A stretch of 64,000 nt of DNA from the NCBI GenBank assembly GCA_037576195.1, contig CM075103.1, positions 35,973,250 to 36,037,249 on the forward strand. The letters are read 5' to 3'. Positions 13,342 to 64,000 of the stretch are shown in pieces; the stretch's first letter is position 1, and the number at the start of each line of letters is the position of its first letter. The translations under genes and the position numbers were made by a program. Origin of the DNA: Phytoseiulus persimilis. Taxonomy: Eukaryota; Arthropoda; Arachnida; Mesostigmata; Phytoseiidae. The notes beneath the pieces were generated by a model. That model made no database searches, had not been told where the DNA came from, and saw only the letters and a list, made by a program, of their open reading frames with translations.

Positions 13342-13390
13342 ATGTTTTCCTTCTCGTCTATTCGTTGTGACTTCATTCAATAGTTCATTT

Positions 13391-15585: not shown

Positions 15586-15599
15586 TTCCCTCGGGTTCG

Positions 15600-24324: not shown

Positions 24325-24328
24325 GATG

Positions 24329-29165: not shown

Positions 29166-29174
29166 CAAGCTTAA

Positions 29175-38853: not shown

Positions 38854-39160
38854 GACTTCCCAAACATCTACGGTTTGTTGTAGGAAAGATGGGCATTAAG
38901 GATTTCCAACTCAAATAGTTTTGACCAAACAGACCTAGGGTCACTGGGCATGGGGCAAGCCTGGTATAGTTCGAGTCGGACGGGGCTCTGAATCGTCCTT
39001 CTTTAGCGCGGCAGGTTCATCTTCCTGCGCAGCCAGATCGTATTGGTAGTCGTCGTCTGCCATGGCCCTAGGTAGGTCGCTCCAAGTGGGACCGATGTCA
39101 AAAGGAAGTATTTGCACTTATACTTACTCTCAGGTACTCTGGAGTATCGTGCTGATAACG

Positions 39161-42532: not shown

Positions 42533-43369
42533 GTTTGAAAATTCGAAATCTACGACCTCGACTTTTAACAACCTAGGTTTAAGCTTCGTTGTTACGCGAA
42601 ATTTTTTTTTGTCGGGCAGTGTGATAGATTGAATACCCTGGGGTAGAAATGGGGGGCGGCCCGAGAGCAGCGCATAAGGGTGCCTCCTTCCTGACAAATG
42701 ATCCCATTGCGTCTCTCGGCACCCGAGAAGAACAGTTATTCATGCTGATTTTCGAGCTTTCCGAGGGGGCGCACATATCGGCCTCGGACTTTTTTTTTGT
42801 GACCCTTTCAGAAAAATCGATGTGTTTCTGGTTTATCATGAGCTGAGTTTAGAGATGAACCAGAGCTTCAAGATTCGTCACATGAATGACGAAGTTTTAG
42901 CACAGTGCACCGAAGCCGCAGGGAACGACGTTTTCACGTCGAAATTGGTAAACTTCAAATGCTCATATCTCGGCTCCCAGATTGGTTACAGCGCCAATCA
43001 AGTTATTTTTGAAGAGGTCAAAGAGGGAACCATCGACAGGCATAGTGTCGTAAGGATCGGAAGCTCTTCTTGAGCTTTCCAAAAATATTTCGAAGGGCGC
43101 TGTAGCCCATCTGGGAGCCGAGATATGAAGTTGACCGATTTTCGTCAAAAGTAGTGAAAAATCGAAGGGGCCACTAATGACCGGGACTCTTTCCATAGGG
43201 ATTTGATGTGCATTTGTTGTATCAACATTTCCGCTTCGGACTCCCATATATTCTCTTAGCCTTCTAGGGATTTTCGCGCGTTGGACCGAGTGATTCCCGG
43301 GTATTTGTATGCCTATATCTTGCTATCATGTTTGACGTACGGAATGCTTTCAGCTCAATGCCGTAGTAG

Positions 43370-43980
43370 GTGGCGATGAAGACCCTCAGGCAGACTCGGA
43401 TCTCTGGAAACCTACGCAGAATCATAGGGAGCCACCACAAAGACCACGGCATCGTCACGGCTGACGGAGAGCGACTCCCAATGACGGCAGGCGTACCCAA
43501 GTGTGGCAATGCGCCGACGATGTTCCAAGAGCTAATGATGAAGGTGAAGAATACGATCGGATCCCAACAGACATTTGCTCATTCGGATAATATGAATACT
43601 GCAGCGGACAGGTATCAAGTGCACCTAGATAAGATGGGAAATGTCTTGAAGGTACTTCAGCAGGCGGGCTTGACAATTCGACTGAAAAAGTGCAAGCACT
43701 TCATGGAGTCAGTGGAATTTCTGAGGCTCAGCGTTTCGAATGACGGAATCGAACCGGGTGAAACGTTCACGAGGAGCAAATTGGAGCAAACGGGCAGTCG
43801 TTAGGGCGATGAAGCGACTAAGACACTATCTCTGGGCGTAGAGGTTCACAGTGGTGAGCGACTGTAATGCAGTGGCAGCGCTTAAAGCACTGGAAGGATC
43901 GGCACAGCTTAGTAGATTGCTAAACAGGATAGCGGAATTCGATTTCGAGGTTAAGGGGGTACCTCAGTGGCGGCGCCAGC
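43370..43980 (+). pseudogene. Gypsy-type RT/RNase H scrap, copy 2
   Basis: Nearly identical to 28545-29165. A one-base insertion near 43848 (GAGGTTCACAG against GAGGTCACAG in copy 1) breaks the RNase H frame here. Confidence 0.75.
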
Positions 43981-44000
43981 GGGAAGCTAAGCAAGCTTAA

Positions 44001-45416
44001 GGGGGGATGTTCACTAAAAATCGGGAAAAATCGCGTTTCCTGTTTGTGGCATGGTTCGATGCAGGACAGGCCCCTCTGGTATCCAAAACAAATCGGACCT
44101 CGATATCTGTCTTAGATTCCTAGATATCAACCATTTTGTTCATATCATCTGGATGTGTCATGTTAGGTCGTGAAGAACTATCAAGCGAAGCTCTGATGTT
44201 CACTCGTTCAGGCGGGGGAACCGTTTTCGATCCGCGGAAACAAATACAATTCGTGGGGAGCATCTACGTTCTCGAAATCACCCGCTTCAACAAACTTCTG
44301 CCGCTGGTGGAATGCGTTCATTCTTTAAGCTGACAGTCTGCTCCGCGCGCGCAGTGAGACGGGCCGAAGTCGAGCTGGCCGGGGAGACGGCACACGTCGA
44401 TCGATGTCATTCTCTATCGTGGAAAATGAGACACGGTGAACCTTCCGGCGACTCGAATTCCGAGATAGGGTCAGAGCCGAGGGGAGAAACGTGGCCGACG
44501 AAACGGCGCGAAGCAGGCCGAATGGGCAGAGAACTTCGGTCAAATCAGGTCCGCCATTTCCCTGATTTCTCCTATTGGGAGTCATCGATTTTGATGCGGC
44601 TTGTTTCTATTTGTTGCTGATGAATGTGGCTCTTAAATGAACTGGAATTGAAGGAATTGGAATTGTTCTCTTGGACACAGCTTTGGCGAAGGAGGAAAAA
44701 TGTTTTTTTTTTCATCTTCCTCATCGATTTCAAAGATTTTCCCCTGCTCGGACCCCGATAGTTCTAGTTCATCTCCGAGAGAAATTCCTCGCCTAGATTT
44801 CAAAACAAGATTGAAGTCACTAGCTGGTTCTGGTGCCGAGAAATCAGGTGAAAACCACAGGGAATGGCGAGCCCTCACTTCGATGGTCACAAACTTCAAG
44901 GCTCGATTTCTCGGAATCGTATTTCGGCCCATTCCCGACCACCATTTCCCTGATATCTCCGCGCCAGGTGCATCGATTTCGATAAAAAAAAATTTCAAAC
45001 GTAGCTCATGCTCGTGGGAATAAAGTGAACTGGAATGATGGCGAACGCAAGCGGGGCCTCCGAAAAATTCGTCATCAGCCAAATGTTGATTCTTCCAGCA
45101 TCTTGATCTTGAATTTTTTTATGGTTCTCGGGGCAGGATTGCCACCGTTCTAGTTCAGTATGAGGAGCACAAAATAATCTACCGTTCAAGAAAAAGAACA
45201 GCCCTCTACCTCATCCTGGCGAGGAAAAATCAGGGCAAAACCGCGAAATCCAGACTCTTTTTCCGCTAGAGAAGAAAACGAAGTTGAGTCTCAATTTTTT
45301 TTCGTGAATAGTTTGAAGCTTCCTACATTCGGGGGTCACTTCAGATGGTTTCTAGCTGCCACAAAAGAAGATACAGGCCGCGGAAGCAGATATAGTGTTT
45401 TAGTGAACATCCCCCC
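44001..45416. mobile_element. TTAA-flanked TIR element, copy 2, 1416 bp
   Basis: Same 19-bp termini and TTAA flanks (43997-44000 and 45417-45420) as copy 1. Because it is at the same place in both copies, it inserted before the segment was duplicated. Confidence 0.82.
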
Positions 45417-45847
45417 TTAAGCATCCCGAATCTCAGAGTAGGGAAGCTAAGCTTCCCAAAAATTATTTTGTCGGGTCCGACCTTATGACGATTTGGAGAC
45501 AATTTTTCCATTAACAATATTCGTTCTGTTATTTCTTCGTAAATCACAATTAGGATGGGATCGAGCACCAGCCAATCTTGGAAGCATCTGGAATCTCTTA
45601 ACTCTCGCACAGTGCATGTGGAAATCTTCAAAATAAATTCACGAGAATCTTCCTGCCCAAATCAGCTTCCCAAAGAAAAAATCCCGGCGCTGTGGTCACT
45701 TCCGAGCTCCAGGCTCCTGAAGGCTGTTAACCTGATGCTCACGTCTGACTCCGATCGAGTACGAATTCAGCGACTCGGAAGCATTCCACAGTCCACTCTG
45801 AAAGAAATGTGGCCTTCCACGACTAAATCAAAGTCTCGGGAGACGAA

Positions 45848-46230
45848 ATTCTTCCCTAGTTTCAGAGTCTTCCACCGTCAAGTCACCATACCGGGCTGAG
45901 CTTCGGTAGGGACTCGGGGTTCTGAGCGACGGGGACGTCGGTTCGGTGTCTGGTGACTGCGGCGTTGGCGGGGCCGACACCGGTTGCGGGGGAACTGCGG
46001 CCTGTATGAAGAGGGCCCGGGGGCAGGCGGATCCCCGTAAACGGTGCGTAGTGCTGCCGGACTGGCCGCCGCAAGGTAATGCTCGAGGTGCTGTCCTCAA
46101 ACGATGTCGGGGAAGGCTTCGAAGCCCGAGTTGGTCATCCTCCAGAGCAGATCCAGGAAACCTCGCCGCGTACACGCATACTCCAAACACATGCCTCTGC
46201 GGCCGATTCCCTCCTGGTTATGGTTGACAG
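45848..46230 (-). repeat. Pro/Thr/Ser-rich dispersed sequence, copy 1
   Basis: The minus-strand frame at 45828-46190 encodes SAPPTPQSPDTEPTSPSLRT. About 85 bp (45895-45976) matches 51442-51528 on the plus strand at roughly 88 %. The rest of this stretch is GC-rich and unrecognised. It may be a fragment of a host gene or of a Gag. Confidence 0.5.
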
Positions 46231-48867
46231 GATTGCGCATAGTGCGGACTGAAACGGGGGTCGTCTAGTAATCGCAACGAGGTGGAAAGAAAGAAATAAA
46301 GGGGGAACTCCAGCTTACTGAGGGCTTGGGCTTCGTGTCGCGGTGGAGAATGACAGAACGGCAACACGGCGAAACAATCGGAACCACGTCCGAAACAAAG
46401 GGTGGTTGAGAGCGTGTTGGGGGTGGAGTGAAATTCACCACCAGTGCCGAGTCATGGCATGATTCGTCAATTTTCCTCCAATCAATCCTCCCGGTCGTGC
46501 ATGGGAAGCTATCGGAATTACGCAGTCGGATGGCATGGCGGGCATTCATCGGCGTCTCACATGTGCAGATCAAATGTATGATGCCGTTGGATCATGTTAC
46601 GCAAAACCGTTCGGTCAGCCGACACCGGCTGTGCCACTTTCTTAAAATTGATGTCGAATTGGGTACAACGAGCACGCGTGAACGACCCCGATGTCAGACA
46701 GAACCGAAGCCCGGTCCGGCAGGAGTGTCACGTAACGGAGCCGCACCCCATGGTATCGACATGTTTCGTGGGAGTGAACTTGGGTGGTGAGGCCGGAGAG
46801 CACCCGCGGGGCGCTTCAAGCGCACCAGTCGAAACTTCAATTCGCTCTTTTCCAGTGAAAATATTCAGAGTGTAGCGCCAGGGTGCTACGTGTATTCATG
46901 CGACTAATTAAGTGAAAGGCAAGCAGTGTGGCGAAAAGATAGAAAACAAGCATGACTTCATGGGAATAAAAAAAGTTCTAAGGCTCTATCGCCCCGCCTC
47001 CCCGTCGATGGGCAAGATGCTGGACAACAACACACTCCGCATCGCTGCTTGTCTCCGTCTGGAAGTGCCAATCTGCGCCAACTCACCTCTGTGCCGGGTG
47101 CAGCTCCCCGGTTTCTGCTCTCGGGGACCTTGAACCGAGCTGTTCACGCAGTTGTTGCCGTTTTTCCCGTCTGAAAGCTCCTGAGGCGAGCCGATACCTG
47201 GGGTAGGAAGCCACTGTCTGGGACACCCTCGCCCCATCAGAGTCGGCTAAGTTGGCAAAGTATTGTTAGTTCGAAGCCCGCTCCATCATCCAAACCGTCG
47301 TCATCGAGACCTTGCGAAAGCTGGGTCGTTTGTCGGAGTCATTCCTCCGGAATTTAGGGAAACGAAACGAGGTCGTGTCTGGGGACAAGAAGTCTCCCCA
47401 CCCTCCCCCACTGGGAGACTTACTGTGGGCGAGTTCGCTACCAACTGAGATTCCTTGCCGGAATGGGCTCAGACGGTGCCCTACGTTAACACACTCGATC
47501 CCACTTTATAATCGAGATGAAGAGGGGAAAACCGGGAGTTCTCTCTTGATGTATCTGGACGATGATGAGGGAATCATGTCTGCGTGCGGAGCGATGGTCT
47601 TGTGATTCCGGCGGCGAGCACGTTGGGTGGCGGCCGCCATGGTTGAAGTGAGGTTGTGGTGTGTGAAAAAAGTTCGAAGGATGCTGGACTCGGAACACAG
47701 TCTGTAGAAGAACGAAACTTCGAGCGGGATGTGTGATGATTTCCCGCCCCAACACGCCGATTCAGCGTCAAGCTCGTCATAGGTCAAGTTCGTCCGGGTC
47801 AGACTGCACGCTCTCCTCTAGTAGGTTCGTCAAGCAGCATTCACCCATGCTCGTTTTCGTTCCGTTGTTGGAGGAAGCCAACCGATAAGATATATACTCG
47901 CGTTGATATCAGAAGGATACCGAATCTCCAAGACCGGAGGTGATTCAAATTAGAAAGAGAGCGGGACAAAATGGGATCGATAAAGATGTGGCGATCCATT
48001 GTTAGTGCTTGGGTATTCCGTTGTGCTCGAATGGAGAGATCTCCTTGAACCGAAACATTCCAGCATACTCTCGGAATGGAACATGGTTCATGAAGAAGCT
48101 ATCGATATCATCTTCCGACATGCCAATGGCGGAATTTCGCCTCCCGGAGTCAACTGAGCTTCTTCGTCTAAGTAGACATGACGTTTCCAGAGTCTGGCTG
48201 CAGAGAGCGGCCGCAGGCCTGTTTCCACCAATGGAGTAACCAAGACGAGACTACGCATCGACAAACTCAGGCGGTGAATTGAAGTTTGGATGCCGTCGAG
48301 TGTTGTTCTCGACGTTGTCGGAGCCGGCGTGACGGAACCATCGTTGTCTTTCAAAACTGAGCTTCAAGTGACACCAAAGCTGGCGTGGTGGCTATCTTTC
48401 CCGGAGTCGTCCACAAAAGTATGACTGACGGTCTTTAAATGGTTGAGGACGCGGTACCATTTGTGCTTGAATGTATGATTCTGACGAACTCTGTCGCGCA
48501 GTAGTTTCGCCTCTTGGACCGCCAATCAGATGGGTCTCGAGTAGTAGTCCGTTGGTGCTCCCTTAAAGTTTTCGCGAGATAACTCGAGGAGGCGAACTCC
48601 CGGAAATATTCGCCATAAAATGGGAGCGCCAATGCCATTATCCGTTTGTATAAGATTGTCGATGTTGGTGAGAGATCAACCGAACCTGATATGGCAGACG
48701 ACATGAAATCTATCCTAGGAAGAAAAAATCCGGGACCTGCTCAACTGGTCCCGCCAGAGAAGCCGCTATCACTCGGTTATCAAACTTGAAACGGAGCAGA
48801 TTCAAACTTTCAGCTGTTCATGAGGTTTGGAGACATACCAGGATCAGGCACAACTGGAAACAGGCTG
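46231..48867. other. No recognisable gene
   Basis: 2.6 kb. The frames are short, with no domain or repeat I recognise. A short imperfect hairpin GTAGCGCCAGGGTGCTAC lies at about 46874. Confidence 0.4.
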
Positions 48868-49350
48868 AATGGGCTGGCGCCCACGAACCTGCATTCTGGA
48901 GTCGCAGGCGAGCTGGAAGAACTGATCGACATACCGGCTTTGGATGTAAGGAAGCTGAATTTGATTTCTTGATGCTGTCACGAAAAGACCGTGGATGCAC
49001 GGATCCTGTTCGATGAGCGCCAGCAGACGCTCAAATGTTCGACTGTTTCTGGTGGACTTCATGAAGGGATGCATCCCATAAGCTTCCTATGAATGACCCG
49101 GAAGGAGATTGAGGGAAGCCTGCAGGATGTGTGAGAACAGGCGGATGAGAATCCATATTCGGTACCCCTGAAGCCTGCGACGGGATACGAGACGATATTG
49201 AGTGAATCTCCTTTGCATTGCACACACAGATGTCCTGAGAATCCTGCAACGAGCATTGACCTGACGCCAAGCACGAAGCTCATCAATCAAGGTCGATTCC
49301 ATGACACCACTGAACTTCTGTTCCGCCGCGCTCGGTCCGCTGTAGATCAT
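48844..49350 (-). other. Possible second ORF in the left arm, opposite strand
   Basis: One frame reads FSGVMESTLIDELRAWRQVN and ends LLPGHS-TAG, then continues in the same frame as EAYGMHPFMKSTRNSRTFER and QDPCIHGLFVTASRNQIQLP. The mirror-image sequence in the right arm (57108-57599) has the same frame and the same TAG. It is preserved in both arms apart from the arm boundary, but no family is recognised. It could be non-coding. Confidence 0.25.
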
Positions 49351-49400
49351 CCTTTTGATTCTGATGCTTTCGGACGCTGTCCGCTGGCAACTCCAACCCC

Positions 49401-49673
49401 ATGACGTTCAACTGCCTATTGGATGAGTTTCTCCGTCATAATCGGCTCCGATTCGCAGTTTCCCGCGAGTTTCCGGTCAACGCCGTTCTCCACGATCCGA
49501 CGATCCGTCCGCGAATCGATGCTGAACTGCATAACGGGTTCAAATCATCGGATCCCTCTGAAATGAATCTCGCTCACCAGGACGGGTCGCGGGAAAGCCG
49601 AATCGAAAGTTACAAAACGGTGTGTGCAGAGACTTGGAGACTTTCGGGATTTCTCGATCGGAACGTTCTCTGA
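49401..49673 (+). other. Possible ORF upstream of nanos, left arm, frameshifted
   Basis: Starts MTFNCLLDEFLRHNRLRFAV. It matches the longer 128-codon frame in the right arm (56671-57057), but an 8-bp insertion after TVCAET shifts it and truncates it to 90 codons. I recognise no domain. Confidence 0.25.
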
Positions 49674-50462
49674 TTCAGCGAGTTTCCGTGAGCAATACGG
49701 TTTTGCAGCTCCGAGTGGTCACTCCCGTCCGCAATCGTCTTCACTTCTTTCAGGCAGCTCCGTGTTTCGATCACCACAAATTGAGGTGCAGGTGAAGAGA
49801 TAATCTGCGGTGATAGTCGTCTTGTGGAATACATCGACATGTGGCCGAGGGTTTGCGGAGCTCACTCGAAATCCCATCTCAACATGGGCAAAGAAAAGGC
49901 TCCTGGAACTCTGAAGCGCGATCGGGAATATCGAATCTCTGAAGTCAGAATTCGTTGATGAATGAAGGAGGAGTCAACTTTCTCCTGATCCCTGTGCCTA
50001 CCTCACGATGGGGATGACCAGAGACTCTTCCCAATATCACACACCCTTTGGCGAGCAAACCTACACGAGACAGGCCCATGAGGGGATCGACATCGCCTCA
50101 ATCGTGCGGTGTTGCGCTGAAGCGAGAAATCAATTCGGCTAACTACCCGGCATACTCACCTATTAGAGTTCACTGGAGCCCTTCTTGGGCGCTTCAGGGT
50201 AGCGCCCCGCTATTTCCGCGAAGATGATGTTTGATATTCTTGATTGTTTCTGATTCACGTCTCCAACGGGACTGAAGAGCGCGCAGCACCGATTTCGGTC
50301 AGCCTACTCCGTGGCGTCGGAATCCAATTCCGGAGGCATGGTTCGGGTGCGGTACCGGTTTTCGGATGATTTCAACAGCACCCCAAGCTCAGGTGAGCAT
50401 TGTCCGAGTGTACAGGAAACGGGGTGAAGCACTCAAGGTGGAGAGAGTCACTGGGCTCACAG

Positions 50463-50500
50463 TATAAGAACAGAGTCAGAACCCCAGAGAGCTCACAGTT
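50463..50500 (+). promoter_or_regulatory. Core promoter of nanos, left copy
   Basis: TATAAG at 50463-50468 is followed 30 bp later by TCACAGTT (50493-50500), which fits an arthropod initiator. This places a start site about 40 bp before the ATG at 50532. The same arrangement is in the right arm. Confidence 0.45.
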
Positions 50501-50531
50501 CCTCCGTGCAAGAACAGACTTCAACCTCAAG

Positions 50532-51026
50532 ATGCTCAAGGCCGCCATCGCAAACTTCCAGGAGAAGCTCGACTCTCGAAGAGAATTCGAGCTTTTGATC
50601 ATGGAGATCGATGCCCTCCGAGATCGAGATCTCGGGGCGGAAACGAGCGCCCAGGTCCCGCCACCCTCAACGCCAGGAGAAGCAGAGAAAAGAAGACCGA
50701 CGCACAAGAAGCACCTCGGGACGGGGAGACGTCCTCTCGAGGCACGTTTCGAAGAGCGGATCGTCGCCGTGCCGCTCTCGGAACTCGGCTTTTGCCCCTT
50801 CTGCTATAAGAAGGGTGAACCCCGGAGTGTTTACAAGAGCCACAACTTGCGGGCTCGCATCGGGACGGTGGCATGTCCTGTTTTGAGGAGTCTGAAGTGC
50901 GAGTTGTGCCACTGCGAGGGTGGGGACTTTGCCCACACCTTGAGTTACTGTCCGACGTCGGACAACCCGAACAGGCCGAACTTCTTCCGTCATGTTAGGA
51001 AGAAGTTTGCGGTCGGGCGGAGCTAG
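50532..51026 (+). CDS. nanos: Nanos homologue, left copy
   Basis: RNA-binding translational repressor of germ cells, acting with Pumilio in the cytoplasm (family knowledge). 164 aa from the first in-frame ATG (50532); the frame is open further upstream to TTG at 50400, but the TATA/initiator argues for this start. The N-terminal region has a predicted helix (ANFQEKLDSRREFELLIMEI) and a basic middle. The C-terminal Nanos domain has two CCHC fingers: C88, C91, H104, C115 (CPFC, 12 residues, H, 10 residues, C) and C123, C126, H135, C140. VYKSHNLR, CPVLRS and the FAHTLSYCP end match the family. The second finger has 8 residues between C126 and H135, where 7 is usual. No intron is evident. Confidence 0.93.
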   Translation: MLKAAIANFQEKLDSRREFELLIMEIDALRDRDLGAETSAQVPPPSTPGEAEKRRPTHKKHLGTGRRPLEARFEERIVAVPLSELGFCPFCYKKGEPRSVYKSHNLRARIGTVACPVLRSLKCELCHCEGGDFAHTLSYCPTSDNPNRPNFFRHVRKKFAVGRS

Positions 51027-51105
51027 TTTTAAACTATTCGAGGGATGATTGTAGGACTCATTAGAGAGGCCGAAATACGCACCTCCGATTGCCTTTGATA
51101 GTCAC

Positions 51106-51111
51106 AATAAA
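51106..51111 (+). promoter_or_regulatory. Polyadenylation signal of nanos, left copy
   Basis: AATAAA 80 bp after the stop codon, conserved in the right copy. The implied 3' UTR is about 100 bp. Confidence 0.55.
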
Positions 51112-51436
51112 TGAAAGCATCGTTAAATCAACCTTAAATGACCTCTTCAGAGTTTTCGATGATCGAAGTAGCGTTTTCGATGGTACGAATTCAGCCCATC
51201 CAAATTCTTGCTTACACATTCGAATATAAGGGGACAAGAAATGACCCTGACAAGCTTCTTGTTGTGTACAACGCCTTTCCTCTCCGAGGATCTAGCGTCA
51301 ACTGGCCTAGGCAAGTGTATTCATGCAGACGATATCTCGTCGGATGTTATGATTCGGAATTTCGAACTGCTTTCTGAGCTCGGCCAAACAATTTTGTCTG
51401 GCGATGAAAAACGGTGAATGTCGAATCCGAGACCCC

Positions 51437-51690
51437 TTCGGCGGCCCCGCCAACGCCACAGTCACCAGACACCGAACCGACGTCCCCATCGCCCACAACT
51501 CCCGAGCCCCTACCGACGGTCAGCCCGAGAAGCCACCGCACTGTCGCTCGGGTGCCGCGGGAGGAGGCGGAGTGGTACGAGGATGAACCGCCCGAAATCG
51601 TCGGTTCGTGCGTCTCCAGAGATGACCGGAACCGCCGCTGATCTCGCATGGACGGAAAACGGCCGGTGTTCCACTTGCAAATAAAAGTTA
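51437..51690 (+). repeat. Pro/Thr/Ser-rich dispersed sequence, copy 2
   Basis: Starts exactly at the inner edge of the left arm. The plus-strand frame encodes PSAAPPTPQSPDTEPTSPSP and then EEAEWYEDEPPEIVGS. About 85 bp is shared, inverted, with 45895-45976. Confidence 0.5.
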
Positions 51691-52996
51691 CCGACCCGAG
51701 AGTCGAGCCCCAACGCACTCCTCCCGTTTTCTTTGATTCACGGCTGGTGCCACTGCGGATCTTTCCTCGCTTGAACGGGAAAACTCCTCAGCTGTTGGAA
51801 CGAGTTCAAACTGCAAGAGAATGACGTATCGTCCATCCGGGTCTCTCGTCGTCGTTGACTCGAAAAACCGCCTGATTTCCTCATCCGGTGCTTCACCATT
51901 CCACTGTAGGTATGGTTCGATGCGGATCACCCCCGTGTCCCAAAGAAATGAAATGTCATCCGGTCAAATTCAGCGCGTACCGTAGCCGCCAACGGAACCC
52001 CTTTTTCGCCCATCGGCTCCTTCCCATCTGACCAAGCTCCCCTCTTTTTTGTCTCATGACGGACAACAGTAAGGAGTTGGCTTGTGTCTCTTGGTGTTGC
52101 CCCGTGCCGCACAGAAAAGACCCGAACAGAGTCTCGAAAGCCACAAACCCACCAACTTTGCTTATGGTATGCCCGACGATTGGGTACGAATAATCAACCC
52201 CAATGGGAATACTGATCTCACTAGATTAGTGCTCTTCGTTCCTGTTGGCTATCAGACTCAGGTTCCCTGCACAACCTGTCTCTGGAAAGCAGCCTTCTAC
52301 CACAATTGGCAATGCAGTGGCGAGTATGACCAAATGATTATTCGAGAAGCGAATCTTCAGGGCGATCTCCACGCCTCTCCCCTTGAGTTTCTAAGGCAGG
52401 AAAGGCCTGTGGGAAAAAAATTGTTGGTGCCCACCGTTTTCGCCCTGATTGCATCCGCAAACCGATTTGAAATGAGAGTTTTTTTGAGACCCCGTGTCTA
52501 ACACGATTCTTCTTACTGATTCGCAGTGGTCCCTTATCACCTCTACGTATTCCGTGGGGAGCCGCTTTCCGCATACGTTCATTATCCTTATGGAATTCAC
52601 GCTAGCCCGCCTAACGTCTTGAGCCACTACCGGTGCCGACGCCGCAGCCTCTGCGTGCAATTTCAGGCACAACAGCTCATGATATTCACCCTCGCATGGC
52701 TTGGCTTTGAACTTGTCAACCCCATGATCACGATTTATGCATTTGTAGCAGGCATTCTTTGTCGTCGCACATTTCCTACGCTCCTCCTGTAATATTTGCA
52801 TCCCACACTCGATACTAGAATGCTGCTCGGAACAGAAGATGCACGCTTGAGCCGCGTAGTGACTTGTGCCGTGAACCGCAAATGAGTGTCGGCTTCTCAC
52901 AGCTCCGGTTGCACTGGCAACACTGAATCTACTATCTTTTGCCCGCCGGAAGGAGTTGTTGCTCGAGGCGCTACCGAAACGATGTCCCTCCAACAT
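51688..52996 (-). pseudogene. BEL/Pao gag-pol scrap inside the inverted repeat
   Basis: Minus-strand relic. Gag zinc knuckles are CIFCSEQHSSIEC and CYKCINRDHGVDKFKAKPC, followed by HELLC. The protease is RRIVLDTGSQKNS. The protease-RT linker follows in other frames (IPIGVDYSYPIVGH, VAFETLFGSFLCGTG), then DEEIRRFFESTTTRDPDGRY and SRSSEERSAVAP. These are blocks in normal BEL/Pao order, broken by several stops and frameshifts. The RT itself is missing. It lies in the spacer between the two nanos arms and only there. Confidence 0.8.
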
Positions 52997-55030
52997 GGTG
53001 GTAACGGGGCGAACAGAAAATCTTGAACACGCGTCAAATCAGATGAGCCATCGAGCTCCTCAAATCGTATCCCCTAGGATTGGCGAAAAATCGCGGTTTG
53101 GGACGACCGAATTCGACTGATTGCGAGCGAGACGTGCGCAAGAGGGAACGGGAGAAGACCTCGGAACGAGGGGAGTGGTAAGCGGTGGTTTCTAACTGGG
53201 CGATTGATATTTTTCTTTGAGCAGCCCACAGCATACACTCAACATAGAATAGAAATCCATTCCAAACCGCGGATGGAAAAAGCTGAATTTATTTCTCACC
53301 TGCGAGACAGACTCTTCCAGCGCCCGGAGGCCATTACTCCAGTGATCTTCCGCTAGAAGCAGCTTCCACTGTTTTTTTTTCAGTTTCAGATCTCTTTGTT
53401 CATGAATGAAGTTTCATACAAGTCTGGCTTTCTTGAGATACGCCATGAGTAGAGGTCGTTGACTCTATCGCAGCGACTTGTTTCTTCTCTTCGGACAAAG
53501 AAGCTCTCCATGACGCTGTCGTGCTGGATAGATTCTGATTCTCGCCTGGACCCCGCGCTGTCGGATGTCTCCGGCTCCAACTTCGTACGAACGCCTCAGT
53601 TTCGAACTTCGCCCTCCAGCCTAAATACCCAAATTCGAAAAAATGTCGAGACCCTGGGGTCGGACACCGTTTCGTGACACTTCGCTCATTTCGATCCAAC
53701 CGCCGAAGCCGCCCGTGACTAACTAAGGAGGCTGATTTCAAGGATCCTCCCAGCAGGAAGTAGGCTTCTTCTTGAGCTGAGTGTCCGGAAACTCGTGGGT
53801 TCTTATTCAACATTTCGACCCTGCACCGATAGGAAATTCTTGGATAGCGAATGTCAAGATGAAGTTATGAACAGTTGATCATTCAAGCGTTGCTGTGATG
53901 ATCGATGAAAAGTATTTTCTTTTTCGAGTTCCTGATCTTTTACCGTCGAGATAATGGGTGGAGGTTTCAGGAGGATGGAAGACTAATCGGATCCATTTCC
54001 GGTGTCGCAAATCTGTTCAGAATTGGCGTTTCACGAGCCTGCAGAAGTTGGTTATCAGAAAAAAAAACAGGGACGGTTCATCAACGGGCTGAACCGGGGC
54101 GCAGAAATGCGAACAGCCTAGCGTCAAGCCGGGGTAAAGACAAAATTCGTCGACATGCTTCGGCTTCGACATGCTCTCAAATAGCCAATTTTCGACCCAA
54201 TTCATAGAAAAAGAGAGGAACGAAAAAGATGCGCCTTTTAAACAGCAATCGAAAGAAAAAAGCGGCTGAACTTAGGGCGAAAGAAGGGCAGCCATGATCG
54301 TCGCTCAGTTTGGAGTGAACTTGAATGTGGAAGATGGCCCCGTAAACATGGCGATCTAACTCGATATCGGAGCATACGTGCGCAAAGAGCCGACAATATT
54401 GAATGAACGATGACGCCTGTTGGCGATTGCTCCCTGACTTCCGAGTTTTGCAAAGCTTCCTCGGACGAAATCGATGGTACGAAAGGTACGACGCTCTGAG
54501 GGCCAAGGCCCGCGAATCGCGTGTTGGGGCTTGTCTCTAATGCTCGACCCTCCGTGTTGAATGAATACTGAGGTCGGCATGATGACGTTAGCTCAGGGAG
54601 ATTTGCCGGTTACGGAAGGAGGAGTTCGGACTCTTCCGATTTTTTTCCGGGAAGCGCCCCTCTCCGAGAATGGCATTCAGCATGTCCGCAGCATGTTCGT
54701 TGAGTCGCCTGCGTCAAGATTCCATAACGATAGCGCAGGCTTAGCCAAAGGACTCCTCGTCCACCTCCTTATATTCGCTTCTCTGATTCATACATGCTCA
54801 TACTCTGACATTTCTGATGCTCCCTTTCCCGCGCTGATGACTGGCGCCGATGACATTGGTGATGGCAGAAACATGGATCCAATCGACAGCAGATCCGAGT
54901 GAAGTCGATGGATTCGGACATCGTCACCGGACTCCGAGATTCGAATGTTCAACGAGATCTTTTTCTTCGAGTCTTCGTGGGTTCTATGGATCAGGTCTTG
55001 TGAGCTCTCGAACAAAAAGGGATTCCGGAG
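52997..55030. other. Spacer of the inverted repeat, no recognisable gene
   Basis: Contains unrecognised frames such as 53400-53813 (minus) and 54561-54902 (plus, starting MNTEVGMMTLAQGDLPVTEG with a hydrophobic GLLVHLLIFASLIH stretch). No domain is recognised. Nothing in it matches the arms. Confidence 0.4.
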
Positions 55031-55354
55031 GGGTCTCTCATTCTACATTCACCGTTTTTCACCGCCAGACAAAAGTGTTTGGCCGAGCTCAGAAAGAAGT
55101 TCGAAATTTCGAATCATAACATCCGACGAGATATCGTCTGCATGAATACACTTGCCTAGGCCAGTTGACGCTAGATCCTCGGAGAGGAAAGGCGTTGTAC
55201 ATAACAAGAAAATTGTCAGGGTCATTCCTTGTCTCCTTATATTCGAATGTGTGAGCAAGAATTTGGATGGGCTGAATTCGTACCATCGAAAACGCTACTT
55301 CGATCATCGAAAACTCTGAAGAGGTCATTTAAGGTTGATTTAACGATGCTTTCA

Positions 55355-55360
55355 TTTATT
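55355..55360 (-). promoter_or_regulatory. Polyadenylation signal of nanos, right copy
   Basis: AATAAA on the minus strand 80 bp past the stop codon, as in the left copy. Confidence 0.55.
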
Positions 55361-55439
55361 GTGACTATCAAAGGCAATCGGAGGTGCGTATTTCGGCCTC
55401 TCGAATGAGTCCTACAATCATCCCTCGAATAGTTTAAAA

Positions 55440-55934
55440 CTAGCTCCGTCCGACCGCAAACTTCTTCCTAACATGACGGAAGAAGTTCGGCCTGTTCGGG
55501 TTGTCCGACGTCGGACAGTAACTGAACGTGTGGGCGAAGTCCCCACCCTCACAGTGGCACAACTCACACTTCAGACTCCTCAGAACAGGACATGCCACCG
55601 TCCCGTTGCGAGCCCGCAAGTTGTGGCTCTTGTAAACACTCCGGGGTTCACCCTTCTTATAGCAGAAGGGGCAAAAGCCGAGTTCCGAGAGCGGCACGGC
55701 GACGATCCGCTCTTCGAAACGTGCCTCGAGAGGACGTCTCCCCGTCCCGAGGTGCTTCTTGTGCGTCGGTCTTCTTTTCTCTGCTTCTCCTGGCGTTGAG
55801 GGTGGCGGGACCTGGGCGCTCGTTTCCGCCCCGAGATCTCGATCTCGGAGGGCATCGATCTCCATGATCAAAAGCTCGAATTCTCTTCGAGAGTCGAGCT
55901 TCTCCTGGAAGTTTGCGATGGCGGCCTTGAGCAT
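55440..55934 (-). CDS. nanos: Nanos homologue, right copy
   Basis: Second, fully open nanos copy, 164 aa from the ATG at 55932-55934. All eight zinc ligands of the two CCHC fingers are preserved, including the 8-residue spacing in the second finger. Within the 208-codon open frame it differs from the left copy at only four positions. These are Thr/Ala and Phe/Leu upstream of or near the start, Ile/Asn in the first finger (RARIGTV against RARNGTV) and Leu/Phe in FAHTLSYC. TATA, initiator and polyadenylation signal are also kept, so both copies look expressible. The two genes are convergent, about 4.4 kb apart. Confidence 0.93.
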   Translation of the reverse strand: MLKAAIANFQEKLDSRREFELLIMEIDALRDRDLGAETSAQVPPPSTPGEAEKRRPTHKKHLGTGRRPLEARFEERIVAVPLSELGFCPFCYKKGEPRSVYKSHNLRARNGTVACPVLRSLKCELCHCEGGDFAHTFSYCPTSDNPNRPNFFRHVRKKFAVGRS

Positions 55935-55965
55935 CTTGAGGTTTAAGTCTGTTCTTGCACGGAGG

Positions 55966-56003
55966 AACTGTGAGCTCTCTGGGGCTCTGACTCTGTTCTT
56001 ATA
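55966..56003 (-). promoter_or_regulatory. Core promoter of nanos, right copy
   Basis: TATAAG on the minus strand at 55998-56003 and TCACAGTT 30 bp downstream, mirroring the left arm. Confidence 0.45.
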
Positions 56004-56670
56004 CTGTGAGCCCAGTGACTCTCTCCACCTTGAGTGCTTCACCCCGTTTCCTGTACACTCGGACAATGCTCACCTGAGCTTGGGGTGCTGTTGAAATCAT
56101 CCGAAAACCGGTACCGCACCCGAACCATGCCTCCGGAATTGGATTCCGGCGCCACGGAGTAGGCTGACCGAAATCGGTGCTGCGCGCTCTTCAGTCCCGT
56201 TGGAGACGTGAATCAGAAACAATCAAGAATATCAAACATCATCTTCGCGGAAATAGCGGGGCGATACCATGAAGCGCCCAAGGAGGGCTCCAGTGAACTC
56301 TAATAGGTGAGTATGCCGGGTAGTTAGCCGAATTGATTTCTCGCTTCAGCGCAACACCGCACGATTGAGGCGATGTCGATCCCCTCATGGGCTCGTCTCG
56401 CGTTGGTTTGCTCGAAATAGGGTGTGAAATATTGGTAAGAGTCTCTGGTCATCCCCATCGTGAGGTATGCACAGGGATCAGGAGAAAGTTGACTCCTCCT
56501 TCATTCATCAACGAATTCTGACTTCAGAGATTCGATATTCCCGATCGCGCTTCAGAGTTCCAGGAGCCTTTTCTTTGCCCATGTTGAGATGGGGTTTCAA
56601 GTGAGCTCCGCAAACCCTCGGCCACATGTCGATGTATTCCACAAGACTACTATCACCGCAGATTATCTCT

Positions 56671-57057
56671 TCACCTGCACCTCAATTTGTGGTGATCGAA
56701 ACACGGAGCTGCCTGAAGGAAGTGAAGACGATTGCGGGCGGGAGTGACCACTCGGAGCTGCAAAACCGCATTGCTCACGGAAACTCGCTGAATCAGAGAA
56801 CGTTCCGATCGAAAAATCCCGAAAGTCTCTGCACACACCGTTTTGTAACTTTCGATTCGGCTTTCCCGCGACCCGTCCTGGTGAGCGAGATTCATTTCAG
56901 AGGGATCCGATGATTTGAACCCGTTATGCAGTTCAGCATCGATTCGCGGACGGATCGTCGGATCGTGGAGAACGGCGTTGACCGGAAACTCGCGGGAAAC
57001 TGCGAATCGGAGCCGATTATGACGGAGAAACTCATCCAATATGCAGTTGAACGTCAT
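56671..57057 (-). other. Possible ORF upstream of nanos, right arm
   Basis: 128 codons starting MTFNCILDEFLRHNRLRFAV and reaching AAPCFDHHKLRCR. The left-arm version is truncated by an 8-bp insertion. No family is recognised, so whether it is coding is open. Confidence 0.3.
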
Positions 57058-57591
57058 GGGGTTGGAGTTGTCAGCGGAGAGCGTTCGAAAGCATCAGAAT
57101 CAAAAGGATGATCTACAGCGGACCGAGCGCGGCGGAACAGAAGTTCAGTGGTGTCATGGAATCGACCTTGATTGATGAGCTTCGTGCTTGGCGTCAGGTC
57201 AATGCTCGTTGCAGGATTCTCAGGACATCTGTGTGTGCAATGCAAAGGAGATTCACTCAATATCGTCTCGTATCCCGTCGCAGGCTTCAGGGGTACCGAA
57301 TATGGATTCTCATCCGCCTGTTCTCACACATCCTGCAGGCTTCCCTCAATCTCCTTCCGGGTCATTCATAGGAAGCTTATGGGATGCATCCCTTCATGAA
57401 GTCCACCAGAAACAGTCGAACATTTGAGCGTCTGCTGGCGCTCATCGAACAGGATCCGTGCATCCACGGTCTTTTCGTGACAGCATCAAGAAATCAAATT
57501 CAGCTTCCTTACATCCAAAGCCGGTATGTCGATCAGTTCTTCCAGCTCGCCTGCGACTCCAGAATGCAGGCTCATGGGCGCCAGCCCATTC

Positions 57592-58589
57592 CCTCATAAG
57601 CAGCTGAAGGTTCTCTGAGCAGAGGACCTCGTCACAAGTGACGGGCGGATATCTGCACGAGGATTGCAGTCGTGACAACAATGGCTCAGGGCATCGATCG
57701 CGTTCAGTGGTCTCGCGACTGGATTCATCGATTCTTCTATCCCTGGCCAGTGCTGTCTTCGCGACTTGAGGTGTTCATTTCACTGGGCGTCCTCTCTGAT
57801 GATCTGTTGGCATGAGCCCTCGACTCGCGCGAACAACGAGCCCTGAAGACACAATAATGACTTCGCGTATGAGAAGCCTTCCGTAAGAAGAACCTCGCGT
57901 AAGACACATTGACAGCCGACCGCATTATGAATCCAATGACACGAATTTTGTTGAAGTTTCGTCTACGTAGCGCGCCATCTTGGAATGATCTCACAGGTCA
58001 CAGTGGTCACTGGTACCAGGTACGCGGGCTCTCATCATGACTACGAATGAGTTCATCGGATCTCTCGGGTTTCTTCCCCCATTTTTCCAGGGTTATTCTG
58101 ATATACTTCCATGTCTCTAGACCGCACTCCTCGATCGGATCAGATCTTCTTGCGAGCTCTTCCGTCCCGGGTTAATTGGTGACGCGTTTCATCATGATGT
58201 GGGGGATGGTGTCAAGCTCCTTTCCCCATCTTACGCATCGGGGGTCGATCTCCGGTTAATTTGAACTCCAGAGGTAATTCGTTGATCGAACCACGGTTCC
58301 GACAGCGAGAATGGTGTGATAAACACGTGGAAAATGCCGTCAGTCTCTTCACAGGAACGAGGACGTCGACAACTGCAACAAAAAACTCTGATCGCCAGAA
58401 TGGTATTCGACTGCCATCGATAATGACATTGGTTGTCGGAAACAAGACCAACTAATAAGTGCACGGACGGAAGTTCACCTAACGGAATTAACGGAAAGTG
58501 GAACTCTGCCCTTCCCCCTACTCCTATATCTCATACATGATAATGTGACATATAGACTTCGACGTTGGGATCTTCGATGGAGCCATCGA
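57592..58589. other. No recognisable gene
   Basis: One kilobase outside the right arm. No motif seen. It may include the decayed upstream part of the Helitron helicase. Confidence 0.4.
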
Positions 58590-59400
58590 TCTTCAAATCG
58601 AAATCCACAACAACAGTTGGTTTACGTTGCTTTGTCGAGAGTCAAAGCGGTCGGAGGCTTCTTCAACGATTGCCCCGATGAATTCCGATTCCATTATTCC
58701 AAACGAGCAACCGCTTCTTAAATGGTGCAACTACGAATAGAACTACAGACTGAACCATCACCGATTCAAAACGCAAGCTCATCAACAATTCACACCAGAA
58801 TGGATTCAGCGAACGCGATGCTACCGTCTTTCAACGTCCAACATTTGCCGACACACGCACTGGATATCACAAGCGATAGAGGCTACGTGCAATCCACAGT
58901 TTTCTGTCCCAGTGAAACTCTGAAAGAAAGCTCCTCAACCGTCATCCTAGATCATTTCAACCTAATGACCCAAAACAAAGAAAAACACCGCACAGGTGGT
59001 CAAACCATTCACGAAAGAAGAGGAGCACCTAAACAAGTCACCCCACAATTACACCAGATCTCATTGATGAGGATCATGTTGATCTATGTGCCTGTAGAAT
59101 ACTACTACGTGACCAGATAACTTTCCTTGCGACAGCACATATGAATCCAGGAACATCGTTCGAACTCATCGGAGAGTTTCTACTGAAATATGACCATGTT
59201 CTGTCCCCGGTATACAAGACCGGGAAACTCCGTTGATTGTACGCAGCGATTTCAATTCGAGTCTGAGGGACCCTCTCAAAAGACGGAAGATGATCACATT
59301 CATGCGAGATCAATTTGATCTTCAACTATTAACCGATCGCAAGATATCGACAGCGCCTGGACAAACATGTATCGATAATTATATCCTCGAAAGGCATCCA
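58590..59400 (+). pseudogene. Helitron helicase end plus EEP endonuclease, decayed
   Basis: Starts with the helicase superfamily 1 (PIF1-like) motif VI, QQQLVYVALSRVKAVGGFF, the usual end of a Helitron RepHel protein. After a stop, the 58722-59120 frame continues as LPSFNVQHLPTHALDITSDR and STVFCPSETLKESSS, then a frameshift leads to TPLIVRSDFNSSLRDPLKRR, FMRDQFDLQLLTDRKI and PGQTCIDNYILERH. SET, SDFN and CIDNYI correspond to the E, D/N and D/H blocks of an exonuclease-endonuclease-phosphatase domain. Fusion of such a domain to RepHel is known for animal Helitrons. The terminal hairpin and CTRR end were not found. Confidence 0.72.
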
Positions 59401-61246
59401 AGATGCTGAAACACAACCCCCGAAGAAGCATTATCTCGTTTTACCGTAGGCTCATTGAAATCCTGCTCGATCCTCGACATCGACGAAGGACACGGCGTTC
59501 CTACCCCCCACAGACGCACAGTGGACGCGACTGAAGGCTCACGTTCTCGCGTCCGGGACTCCGTATCTCCGCGCTCCGATTCAGCCTCTGTTTGAACCGC
59601 TCTCGTTTTCTCTGCGATCGACGGTCGTGTCGAGTTTTCGCTTACTTGTCGCTCTAAGTCAATGGTCGCGGTGTTCAAAGTTCTTCATGAGCATGATTGG
59701 CGCTCTCTTTTCGAACCAGCGGTTCAGGTAGCTCACAGAGTCACATTCGCTGTCGGCAGCGTCGACTGAATCCGTCTTGGTTGACCACATGAGTTTACCA
59801 CTGATCTCTCGCACTTGGAGGATCTGGAGCAGGATTTGCCGTCTTTCGCAATGGTTTAGTACTCCCGTAAAACGAGGCCGAATGTGACAATTTCACAGCC
59901 GTCGTCGATGAAGAGTAGGTTGCTCTCCTCTTTGGGACGCCTATCTTGACGCAGTTGATAGATTGCACGGGAACTGCTTCGAACAAGACGCGGTGAAATT
60001 CACGGTGCGGTTCACATCTTCACCTTGTAGTTGTGGAATGGCGTGGATATCAGTCAGCAGCGGCGGGAGAGCGTTGACGGCTGGGCGGTGGGAGTGACTG
60101 TCGCGAGTGGGCCTCCCCCTGCTCGGAACGTAGGTGACCCCAGCGGAGTATTCGCTCCCAGTATCGGGCGGGCAAACGTACGAGTTTCTTCGCTGTGCAA
60201 CGTGTGTGTGACCGTCTTGGGCTCCACGCCGTCGAGCGACCGCCGAGCATGATGGAGCGGGTAGTTGAATTCGAGCGCTGTCAATCAGGCTCGACGAGCG
60301 AACAAACGCACTCGACCCGCCCTGCACCGTAAGTTTTACATCACCGAAATCGGTGCCAGGTCGCTCTGCAGAGGGTGGAGACCATGAGCCGTTGGCGCGT
60401 TTCTTCGGGCAGAGAGATTCTCCAGCATACGACGACAAAGTTTCCGAGCTTTCGCAAGATTGTTGTTCCCCTGGGAGAGTTTGGGGCACGCAACATAGCC
60501 TATGTCCTTCTTTGGCACGTCCAGAAACGTGTTAGTTTTGTCCAGTCCCTGAGCGTGACTGGCGCGTCTTCTCATCTCGTGCGAATGGCCGGAGACTGTT
60601 CCCTATGAATTAGATACCGGGTTGGGGCTCCTTCGATTCCCTAGTAACCTTGACTGAGCTTCTCCAACCGTTCTTAGTCAAGGTTTCAACGCTGAAGGCG
60701 TTACGTTTCGACCGCCCTCTCGCCGTGAAAAGTACGGGAGAAGAAGAATTCGCAAATACACGCTGTTTCCAATCCTCGGCGGTCGGGTCCATTTCCTTCT
60801 TGTTCCAATATTCTCCTCGAGCAAGATTCATTGATTCTCTCTTGAATTTTCAAGCCGCGTAATGTGCCGGTCGGATAAGGTTTCCATAGCAATGTCGGGA
60901 CTCCCGACATTCGAGCCTCGGAGCGCCGGCGATTTGTCTGTACGCATTCAAGGTGAATATCAATTGGTTCTGGCTCCTGTGTGAAGAAAGAGAGCACCTT
61001 GATTCATTGAACTTCCTCCGTACGGATGCTCATCGATGCTCCCGTATCCAGGGAGCGTTGACGCGAGACCTCTTCGCAGATCCTGGAGACATTTCGCGCG
61101 AGCTGTAATCGATCGAAGTGCAGGGAGAAGACTCATCCAAGAGGTGTCATGGGATGTCATCAGATCCAAGGGTACTCCGGAATACATGTCCCCCGATCAG
61201 TCTGGCGTGAGCGTTAGTCTCGCGGGTGCATCTCTCGTCTTGCAGC
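59401..61246. other. No recognisable gene
   Basis: Contains open frames on both strands, the longest 59941-60489 (minus, 182 codons, starting MPQTLPGEQQSCESSETLSS). Their composition is unremarkable and I recognise nothing in them. Confidence 0.4.
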
Positions 61247-62108
61247 GCCTATCTTCCTCTTCCATCCAAACTTCCGTCGAGTGCATCAGAAACCTAAGAA
61301 CTCCGAACCTCGAGAGGACCATGTCTCGCTGTACAGCGATTCCGGGTCAACCTGCCAAGCGTTTGAGAACGATGACGAATTCGTCTCTCGCATGGCGAAC
61401 GGAGTCGACAAGCTCATGGAGAGGGACAAAATACAGATGGGGCTAGTTGATTGCCATCTCAGACATTGGTTCATAGCTTCAAAGCACTCGGTCCTGACCA
61501 GGCGTCTCCGGAATTGCGCGGAAGATGATAGATTTGCTCACGGCGTCATGATCCCGCGGGAGAGGACAGTTGTAATCTTATGCCACAGTAGCACAGGATC
61601 CTTGGATCGAATCCTTGATGCTCTCGCTCTGCGGACTGAATCTGGCTCTCCCTAGAGCTTGGGGGCGACCGGCTTGACCGTTGTGATCACGATAGACTCG
61701 TTATCAGGACATTTCGTCTCAAGAAAGCTTCGAAGTTTCCCGGCTCATTGCAGGTGGGTAACTAATGTGCATAGATCGTCTCGGGAACACGTCCGAGAGG
61801 AATCGCTGGTCCGGTGTTTCACGCAGCTGAACGTCGAACTGTCTTTCAGATTCACCATGAGCATCGAGCACTCAGGACGACGGCGTTCGATAATTGAATG
61901 TCTCTCCGATTGGTTCTCAATCGACTGGAAGAGGATACGTCCTCGTTTGCATCCGTCCTATTCACATTCGCTGACTCCTGAAAACTCACCAAGGGTCCCG
62001 CTCTTCGTGGAAAATGAGTTGTCTGCCTTTGAATTCGATCAGCCAGTCCCGATATCAGCAGTCCGAGCAAACGTGCTCCACATGGACTGTCTCGAGTATC
62101 ATGACTAG
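61247..62108 (+). other. Possible host exon, unrecognised
   Basis: A plus-strand frame opens right after a good splice acceptor (TCTCTCGTCTTGCAG, ending 61246). It reads FHPNFRRVHQKPKNSEPRED, then DDEFVSRMANGVDKLMERDK, and ERTVVILCHSSTGSLDRILD. A single TAG at 61656-61658 interrupts it, after which the same frame stays open to 62108. The MITE inserted at 62106 now ends it. I do not recognise the family; a BTB-like fold is imaginable but unsupported. Confidence 0.3.
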
Positions 62109-62426
62109 ACCCTGCACTCCGTAGTACGGAATACGGCTGATTTCTGGAAATACGGTCCGTATTATAATACGGAACTTACCGTATTACGGTAATACTGACC
62201 GTACTCATAATACGGTCCGTACTGTAATTCGGCGCTTCGGAACCTATCATTGATATGGACCGTACCGTAGTACGGTAGTACGGTCTCAGACTCGGATGCC
62301 GTATCAATAATACGGGACGTAGCGCCGTATTACAGTACGGACCGTATTATGAGTACGGTCCGTATTATAATACGGACCGTATTTTCGGAAATCAGCCGTA
62401 TTTCGTACTACGGAGTGCAGGGTCTA
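62106..62426. mobile_element. 321-bp palindromic MITE with 8-bp target duplication
   Basis: Terminal inverted repeats start TAGACCCTGCACTCCGTAGT and end in the exact complement. Flanks carry the 8-bp duplication ATCATGAC (62098-62105 and 62427-62434). The interior is built of repeated ACGGTCCGTATTATAATACGG-like palindromes truncated to many short hairpins. An 8-bp duplication and a TAG start fit the hAT superfamily. Both ends and target site are intact, so the insertion is recent compared with everything around it. Confidence 0.92.
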
Positions 62427-62744
62427 ATCATGACCCTCCTCGGAATTTCACTCTGGTTGCTGAGTGACACACCATCTGCTGACACGCTCTGCTTCGCACC
62501 GTTCCGAGCTTCGAAGGACGCTCGGAGACACTCGAGAAGGTTGCTCGAGCGGCATTCGCGTGGATTCTCGGGAATCTATTCTTCTCGCTCATTCTCGTTG
62601 TCGACATGACTTCGAGTGGAACTGTGCCCGACAACTCAAGGATCTCGCGGTTCCGAGAGTGCGCGGTAGGCAAATATGTCTCTCTCTCTGGAAGAGAATA
62701 TCGCAGTGTTCTACCGCGAATCTTCTTACGCTCAATTATGAATG

Positions 62745-63240
62745 CTAGAGCAGAGATGGAAGGGAAGACCCGATCATTTGCGGCTCACCACTCTTAGCTG
62801 ACGAAATCTCTAAGTTCAGGCACTCCCCTGTGTTGTGAGGCGAGTGTATTACTATTTCAGTCTTCGAGAGGCTGAACGTGAGATCCTTCCCTAATCCGAA
62901 TTTCGGAGTGATCCCGAGGAGTCTTTCCATTTCTTTTTCATTTACATGCCAGTAGGACCAGATCGTCTGCGAAGAGTGCGAAGAAGCCGTTTGTTCGATT
63001 TCCGGAACCTTCACCGCATGGATTTAAGGGGATCTGGACAGTGTATGAGAAGCTCGACTCCAAACGGCGATAATTCGGTTTTTGTCGATTTCGAGGAAAT
63101 CGTTTGCTCATTCCGGTTGAAGCTCTGAGCGCGTGATCACGGTGAAGCTGTGGGATCAGGAAGGCAGAATATCGGTGAGCCTGATCAAGAGTACTTTGCA
63201 AACCATTGAGCCACGATGGGGCAACTGAGCTACTCATCAT
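62745..63240 (-). pseudogene. LINE reverse transcriptase scrap
   Basis: The RT catalytic motif FFALFADDLVLLA (about 62950-62990 on the minus strand) is followed after a frameshift by NEKEMERLLGITPKFGLGKD and LTFSLSKTEIVIHSP, the expected order in CR1/Jockey-type LINEs. The upstream part (QLHRDHALRAST) is not clear. Only about 500 bp remains. Confidence 0.75.
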
Positions 63241-64000
63241 TTTTGAACTTGTTGCGTTTAGGAGAAGAGCGAGGGAAAGATCTAGCTAGGGAGCCTGATT
63301 CTATTGAAATCCACATCCGCCCACGCCATTTCACTGTTACTTGCTAATATTATTCGAAGAGCATTGACATGGCAGCAGCGACTCGTAGAGAGTTGGAAAA
63401 TCGGCTCATTTTCCGAGATGGAGTGCTTCTTGATTCTACCGCACTCTAGAGGATTTCCGGTTCCTAGGTTCCACAGTGACGTTCTAAATCTCTTCGGCAG
63501 AAACCTCCCGGTATATTCCATGGGACTCCAGATCGAGACTCTCGATGCGTCGCCATGAGCCGAGTTGAGTTATGAGAAAGAGGACCGGATGGAAGCGTAC
63601 GAAGAAAAGAGATGTCATGCGCTTGTTGGCAGAAAGCTTGCACGCTTCCTCTTGAACTTCAAGCCGAAGGTGATTGATCTGGATGAATCATTGAACGATG
63701 ACCAGTGGAGATTCGTCACCATCGGTTCTGGCTCTGCGATTGACTTCCCCGCCAGAGAGCTCTTGATACCTTCTATCAGTCACGTTTGGTCAGAACGGAC
63801 GGGAGACCCCGCTTCCCTGTTGTGTTTCTCTCCTGAGAGCTAGTTTTGTTCGCGTCCCTGTCGAGTGGCTCAGCCATGATCGTCTCTACAACACTAAGGA
63901 AGGAATGGAAACTTCCCTGGCGTGATCACCCCCAACGAACTCTTCGAACATGAGCGATAAGTGCGGAAGTTCTCATGGACGCATTCTTCTATTGAACGCA
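63241..64000 (+). other. Unrecognised ORFs at the window edge
   Basis: Two plus-strand frames, 63304-63558 and 63565-63843. The second encodes YEEKRCHALVGRKLARFLLN, then VIDLDESLNDDQWRFVTIGS and ends LLCFSPES-stop. Its sequence looks protein-like (balanced composition, conserved-looking DESLNDDQW), but I do not recognise it. It could be the last exon of the same host gene as 61247-62108. Confidence 0.3.

Follow-up and report, generated by a model that had tools for sequence, protein, structure and literature searches.

Nanos is a regulator of germ cells, and animal genomes usually hold one to a few copies of its gene. A stretch of 64,000 nucleotides from the phytoseiid arachnid Phytoseiulus persimilis (assembly GCA_037576195.1, contig CM075103.1, positions 35,973,250 to 36,037,249), hereafter the window, carries two nanos genes facing each other in the arms of an inverted repeat, and raises the question of whether such a palindrome is a special two-gene device or one episode in the history of a larger family. 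The comparisons described below point with good probability to the latter, namely an amplified nanos family in partly concerted evolution, in which the palindrome is one local rearrangement.

The palindrome and its two nanos genes

Comparison of the window with itself by BLASTN aligns positions 48867-51441 with 57591-55025 at 97.63 % identity over 2575 columns (E value printed as 0.0), and a separate repeat search recovers the same arms in two pieces, split at the site of an 8-bp indel. An earlier note on this DNA had found the same arms, with a start one base off (48868 for 48867). The left arm (copy A1, 48867-51441, plus strand) and the right arm (copy A2, 55025-57591, minus strand) lie 3583 bp apart and differ in 60 alignment columns. 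Each contains one complete open reading frame (ORF) of 164 codons plus stop in a single unbroken frame, at 50532-51026 on the plus strand in A1 and at 55440-55934 on the minus strand in A2, the two thus being convergent, and both products match the zf-nanos profile (PF05741), with 63.8 and 65.4 bits respectively against a cut-off of 27. Both copies likewise show a TATA-like box, TATAAG, at -69 from the ATG (50463-50468, plus strand, in A1; 55998-56003, minus strand, in A2) and an AATAAA polyadenylation signal at +574 (51106-51111, plus strand, and 55355-55360, minus strand). The intact convergent pair and the conserved signals that had been read from the window are accordingly there.

Among proteins of solved structure A1 matches only three, namely 3alr (1.8e-12) and 5kl1 and 5kl8 (both 3e-11). 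All eight zinc ligands of the two CCHC knuckles are present in A1 and A2, and the first knuckle has the spacing C-x2-C-x12-H-x10-C, as in known Nanos proteins. The second knuckle reads C-x2-C-x8-H-x4-C in all 36 rows (35 loci) of a zinc-finger set from this genome, for which the pattern was required for inclusion and the filter allowed x5 to x9; the fly and zebrafish PDB rows have x7. Going by these rows, the extra residue looks like a lineage-wide insertion, and exact second-knuckle spacing is not family-defining, given that the zf-nanos profile accepts the longer form. The copies therefore share with the Nanos family (PF05741; zebrafish 3alr, fly 5kl1) the two CCHC knuckles, the profile match and the similarity to solved proteins, and differ from it in the x8 second knuckle and in their number, with 57 matches in one genome. 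A protein homologue search found none at E 0.001 among 103 candidates, viral contigs gave no match, and an Rfam search of the window returned nothing. A structure model of A1 built from a 10-row alignment had a mean predicted local distance difference test (pLDDT) score of 46, which is too weak, and nothing was concluded from it.

Nanos proteins work with Pumilio and CCR4-NOT on germ-cell messages. Intact zinc fingers, together with the selection described below, suggest that the product here would be a normal Nanos RNA-binding protein, silencing germ-cell messages together with Pumilio and the CCR4-NOT deadenylase. Each intact copy is most likely a short gene with a coding part free of introns and its own core promoter, from which it would presumably be expressed.

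A dispersed and clustered family

The assembly comprises 180,977,233 bases in 127 contigs, of which four are chromosome-sized (54.7, 52.0, 38.9 and 28.1 Mb) and 123 are further contigs. It yields 112 Chitin_bind_4 matches, against zero in 14 control genomes, as would be expected of an arthropod; COX1 and TTAGG x6 were searched for and not found, nor was an insect olfactory-receptor family, in a search that gave no signal in any genome. Two nanos genes is a true count for the window, but the genome as a whole contains 57 zf-nanos domain matches over the Pfam curated cut-off, one of them containing a stop codon; a protein search of the same genome gave 73 match rows, several of which are two pieces of one gene. 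Fifty of the 57 matches fall into five groups and the remaining seven are dispersed, the two best-scoring of the latter being at C2:2.004 and C3:9.874 Mb. Three groups lie on C3, the contig that holds the window: cluster A, which includes the window (36.02-36.08 Mb, 5 matches), cluster B (31.61-31.75 Mb, 14 matches) and a tight array on one strand (28.255-28.280 Mb, 15 matches). The others are an array on contig C2 (5.15-5.52 Mb, 13 matches) and three matches on contig C53. The tight array, with a spacing of mostly about 1.8 kb and three copies read, is a tandem array of a different nanos lineage.

Sequence was fetched for 39 of the 57 loci (the 18 others comprise 12 from the tight array at C3:28.26 Mb, 4 from the C2 array of 13 and 2 of the dispersed matches); the full zinc-finger pattern occurs in one open frame in 35 of the 39 (36 rows, one locus being represented twice). 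At a further locus (L039, C2:2795500-2797000) the open frame keeps only the N-terminal part of nanos, without the zinc finger.

The C2 array belongs to a lineage whose protein, as judged from one copy, is about 55 % identical to those of the window. It has seven plus-strand copies facing five minus-strand copies, the thirteenth being farther off. Its two central copies form a second convergent palindrome (L049/L050, C2:5264400-5275400), with arms 95.5 % identical over 2.5 kb, the left one extending past the fetched edge, and a 5.7-kb spacer. Inverted convergent nanos pairs thus occur at least twice, each time in an array with an amplification of its own.

Small nanos families are found in other arthropods: a review gives four nanos homologs in Bombyx mori (PMC13120685). 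That species and P. persimilis share the possession of more than one nanos gene, but the present copies are an order of magnitude more numerous, clustered and partly homogenised. Among the titles and abstract starts listed from the open-licence literature, none reports a nanos amplification this large or a nanos palindrome.

Block duplication, exchange and selection

For cluster A the window plus 50 kb was examined, and for cluster B 150 kb. Positions 51442-103523 of A are collinear, in the same orientation and with gaps, with B 12840-91799, the aligned pieces being mostly 84-93 % identical and the aligned units differing by about 7-9 %; the stretch around copy B3 has no counterpart in A. Clusters A and B, separated by 4.4 Mb of C3, represent a single block in duplicate. 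This collinearity identifies the spacer of the palindrome (51442-55024, minus strand) as the 3' flank belonging to the unit of A2 itself and no independent sequence; compared with its relatives it has indels, and it matches B 12840-16566 in pieces of 89-92 %. The 5' flank of A2 (57592-64000, minus strand) is collinear with that of B2 over about 6 kb in pieces of 90-93 % and is of a type unlike that of A1, whose own 5' flank (45892-48866, plus strand) matches the 5' flanks of B1, B4, B5, B6, B7, A3 and A4 piecewise at about 84-93 %.

In cluster B the counterparts B1 and B2 stand in tandem, both on the minus strand, whereas A1 and A2 occupy opposite strands, plus and minus respectively; because those counterparts lie in tandem, the inverted order in the window is probably derived. 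Both limits of the A1 block (45892-51441) are marked by an 86-bp unit-boundary sequence in inverted copies, one at the inner junction beside the A1 arm (51442-51527, plus strand; from self-comparison and cluster comparison) and the other at its outer edge (45892-45976, minus strand; 90.7 % to the former on the opposite strand). This sequence occurs five times elsewhere, in the intervals A3/A4 (93470-93550 in A), B1/B2, B4/B5, B5/B6 and B6/B7. Short inverted duplications at both edges of a flipped block are also a feature of staggered-break inversions in Drosophila, as described in PMC5080602, but here the boundary copies reach no more than 90.7 % identity and there is no far flank. Outside the A1 block, a 4.1-kb direct repeat (26922-31024 and 41744-45847, 99.1 % identical) ends 44 bp from its outer edge, and contains a reverse-transcriptase fragment scoring just under the cut-off.

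Sequence exchange was examined in an alignment of ten units (A1-A4, B1, B2 and B4-B7, with A5, B3, B8-B10 and four divergent B copies set aside), comprising 392 variable sites among 2297 gap-free columns, by means of 2000 column permutations under a custom density-weighted score that covered all 45 pairs. An uninterrupted run of 46 variable sites (-63 to +263) is identical in A1 and B5, and identical runs of 36, 39 and 36 variable sites are shared by A1 and B2, A2 and B5, and A2 and B2, respectively; none of these four was equalled in 2000 permutations. Between the arms, A1 and A2 agree over a run of 102 variable sites (-1640 to -1165; 3 of 2000 permutations), which lends support to the earlier suggestion that the copies are kept alike by exchange. 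Along the unit, identity between A1 and A3 jumps from 87 % (47055-48425) to 96 % (48469-51440). Shared derived sites number 17 for A3 and A4 and 14 for A1 and A2, with conflicting ones for A1 and A3 (4), A2 and A4 (4), A1 and A4 (2) and A2 and A3 (1), and an 8-bp deletion is common to A2 and A3 only; the arms are therefore closest relatives overall and yet mosaic. Taken together, these patterns show that copies exchange sequence both within and between clusters and that the palindrome is not the sole route of exchange.

Gene conversion is a familiar process in the ampliconic palindromes of mammalian sex chromosomes. Traces of it are one likeness, if a tentative one for the present arms, in which the run of 102 variable sites stands beside a deletion that A2 shares with A3; the other is that reproductive genes are carried in inverted repeats (PMC6772104, PMC9122934). 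The differences are that human Y ampliconic gene copies are given as over 99 % identical (PMC6772104), as against 97.63 % for the 2.6-kb arms here, that exchange here also links distant clusters, and that nothing points to C3 being a sex chromosome.

Gene signals were compared in 15 copies (A1-A5 and B1-B10, four more divergent cluster B copies being left out). An AATAAA lies at +564 to +628 in 13 of them, the decayed B3 and B9 having none between +480 and +900, and TATAAG lies at about the same place in 11, with A5, B3, B8 and B10 differing. The 164-codon frame is present in all ten aligned units and also in A5. Ratios of nonsynonymous to synonymous differences (pN/pS), obtained as pooled pairwise counts over non-independent pairs with a custom script of the Nei-Gojobori type, are 0.24 among A1-A4, 0.36 among the six copies of cluster B and 0.25 across the two clusters, the last dividing into 0.16 for the zinc-finger half and 0.44 for the N-terminal half. 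The arm-to-arm comparison of synonymous with nonsynonymous differences that the earlier note had proposed agrees, A1 and A2 giving a dN/dS of 0.10 on 2 against 6 changes. The copies are under purifying selection, and many of the cluster A and B genes look functional from their sequence. Another ORF upstream in the arms (49401-49673; 56671-57057) was taken as non-coding, since it is whole only in A2 and A3 and carries stops in the other 8 of the 10 units.

Competing explanations and wider setting

Under the favoured scenario of an amplified family, the nanos copies lie in repeat units of several kilobases. One group of units was copied en bloc, so that C3 carries it twice, at a distance of 4.4 Mb, as clusters A and B; other nanos lineages underwent amplifications of their own on C2 and at other sites of C3. 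A local rearrangement may then have set the partial unit A1 (45892-51441) against A2, a unit that retains its 3' flank, so producing the convergent palindrome, and later exchange within and between clusters leads to partly concerted evolution.

The earlier note had regarded the palindrome as a special pair of genes, and a dedicated arrangement of this kind, with conversion from arm to arm and double-stranded RNA from convergent transcription, would suit the long identical tract between the arms and the convergent genes. That status finds no support, given the membership of the pair in a family of 57 matches, the exchange spanning 4.4 Mb and the tandem order of B1 and B2. Moreover, the identity of A1 and A2 (98.0 %) is barely above that of the same-strand copies A3 and A4 (97.0 %), the 8-bp deletion in A2 and A3 is absent from A1, and the two AATAAA signals lie 4.25 kb apart, such that double-stranded RNA, though conceivable, would require an antisense transcript to run on through the 3.6-kb spacer; we regard such a dedicated pair as highly improbable. 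It is hardly credible, again, that nanos was carried by a copy-inserting transposable element. Sharp common ends do appear when the arm alone is compared, and retroelement ORFs lie nearby, but the apparent ends are set by the query and the copies extend past the arm by differing lengths; the non-coding part of the arm (48867-50450) is found at full length at no fewer than 10 places, all of them in clusters A and B. The same search gave at least 10 further, partial rows, three of them at C2:6.63-6.67 Mb. A mobile unit with fixed ends was dropped on account of the unequal extensions beyond the arm and the low-copy flank, terminal repeats and target-site duplications not having been systematically searched.

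That an arm or a cluster is the other haplotype, placed adjacently or wrongly, is unlikely. There is a single assembly, 123 contigs lie outside the four large ones, C53 with its three nanos matches among them, and clusters A and B agree in order and orientation, all of which would fit such an artefact. Nevertheless, the window has no N, the units of A and B differ by the 7-9 % given above, the copy numbers of the clusters are unequal (5 and 14), and a different array holds a palindrome as well. Concern about one arm being a haplotype of the other is in particular weakened by the different outer flanks (A1 like B1 and B4-B7, A2 like B2) and by the 60 differing columns. Neutral amplification, with most copies as non-functional passengers, would account for B3, which has lost two first-knuckle zinc ligands and one of the second knuckle, for B9, which is broken by stops, and for L039 with its N-terminal remnant; it is rendered quite unlikely by the 164-codon frame in 10 of 10 aligned units and by the pN/pS of 0.24-0.36 within clusters.

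Several observations weigh against the amplified-family scenario or parts of it. A single assembly underlies both the copy number and the junction at 51441/51442; frames were read in 39 of the 57 loci, and B3, B9, the match at B 119163 and L036 are without the full zinc-finger pattern in one frame. The 86-bp boundary copies differ by 9 % and the arms by 2.4 %, and a single recent inversion fits these values only if the arms were later homogenised. No continuation of A1 past +909 turned up on its left side inside the window, which also tells against a simple inversion, and it is equally likely that an incomplete unit was copied in from another place. In the C2 array pN/pS is 0.53 (7 of 13 copies), reflecting either weaker constraint or a sample that is too young. 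The shared runs could in part stem from uneven constraint or old polymorphism, a reading countered by the 88.7 % identity of A1 and B1 in the same bin in which A1 and B5 are 100 % identical.

As to why a core germline gene has been amplified, a question for which a genome with 57 nanos matches is a natural case, dose and specialised variants are the plainest candidate reasons, one or the other being probably the benefit. The boldest is conflict in the germ line: a core germline regulator would here have turned ampliconic, with concerted evolution across clusters megabases apart and inverted pairs formed at least twice, and, if this species has paternal genome elimination, a conflict over germ-cell fate or over the retention of one parent's chromosomes is conceivable, though doubtful. 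The two palindromes, for their part, make it possible to test by what route inverted gene pairs come about and stay alike.

The rest of the window, which has a G+C content of about 50 %, holds LTR-retrotransposon ORFs at 21744-24345 and 35406-38895; one stretch has RVT_1 and RNase H domains with a weak protease match (gypsy-like, by interpretation), and the other RVT_2 and a copia-type gag. On the plus strand, 10951-12141 is an open frame with a nuclear-receptor DNA-binding domain (zf-C4), for which NR2-type receptors are closest among PDB sequences, and which contains a 180-bp tandem repeat. Positions 62106-62426 are a 321-bp insertion that consists for the most part of an inverted repeat of itself, with the 8-bp direct repeat ATCATGAC on either side; the matching cluster B site has a single ATCATGAC and is without the insert. 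To judge from this structure, the insertion looks like a small non-autonomous DNA transposon that arrived after the clusters split.

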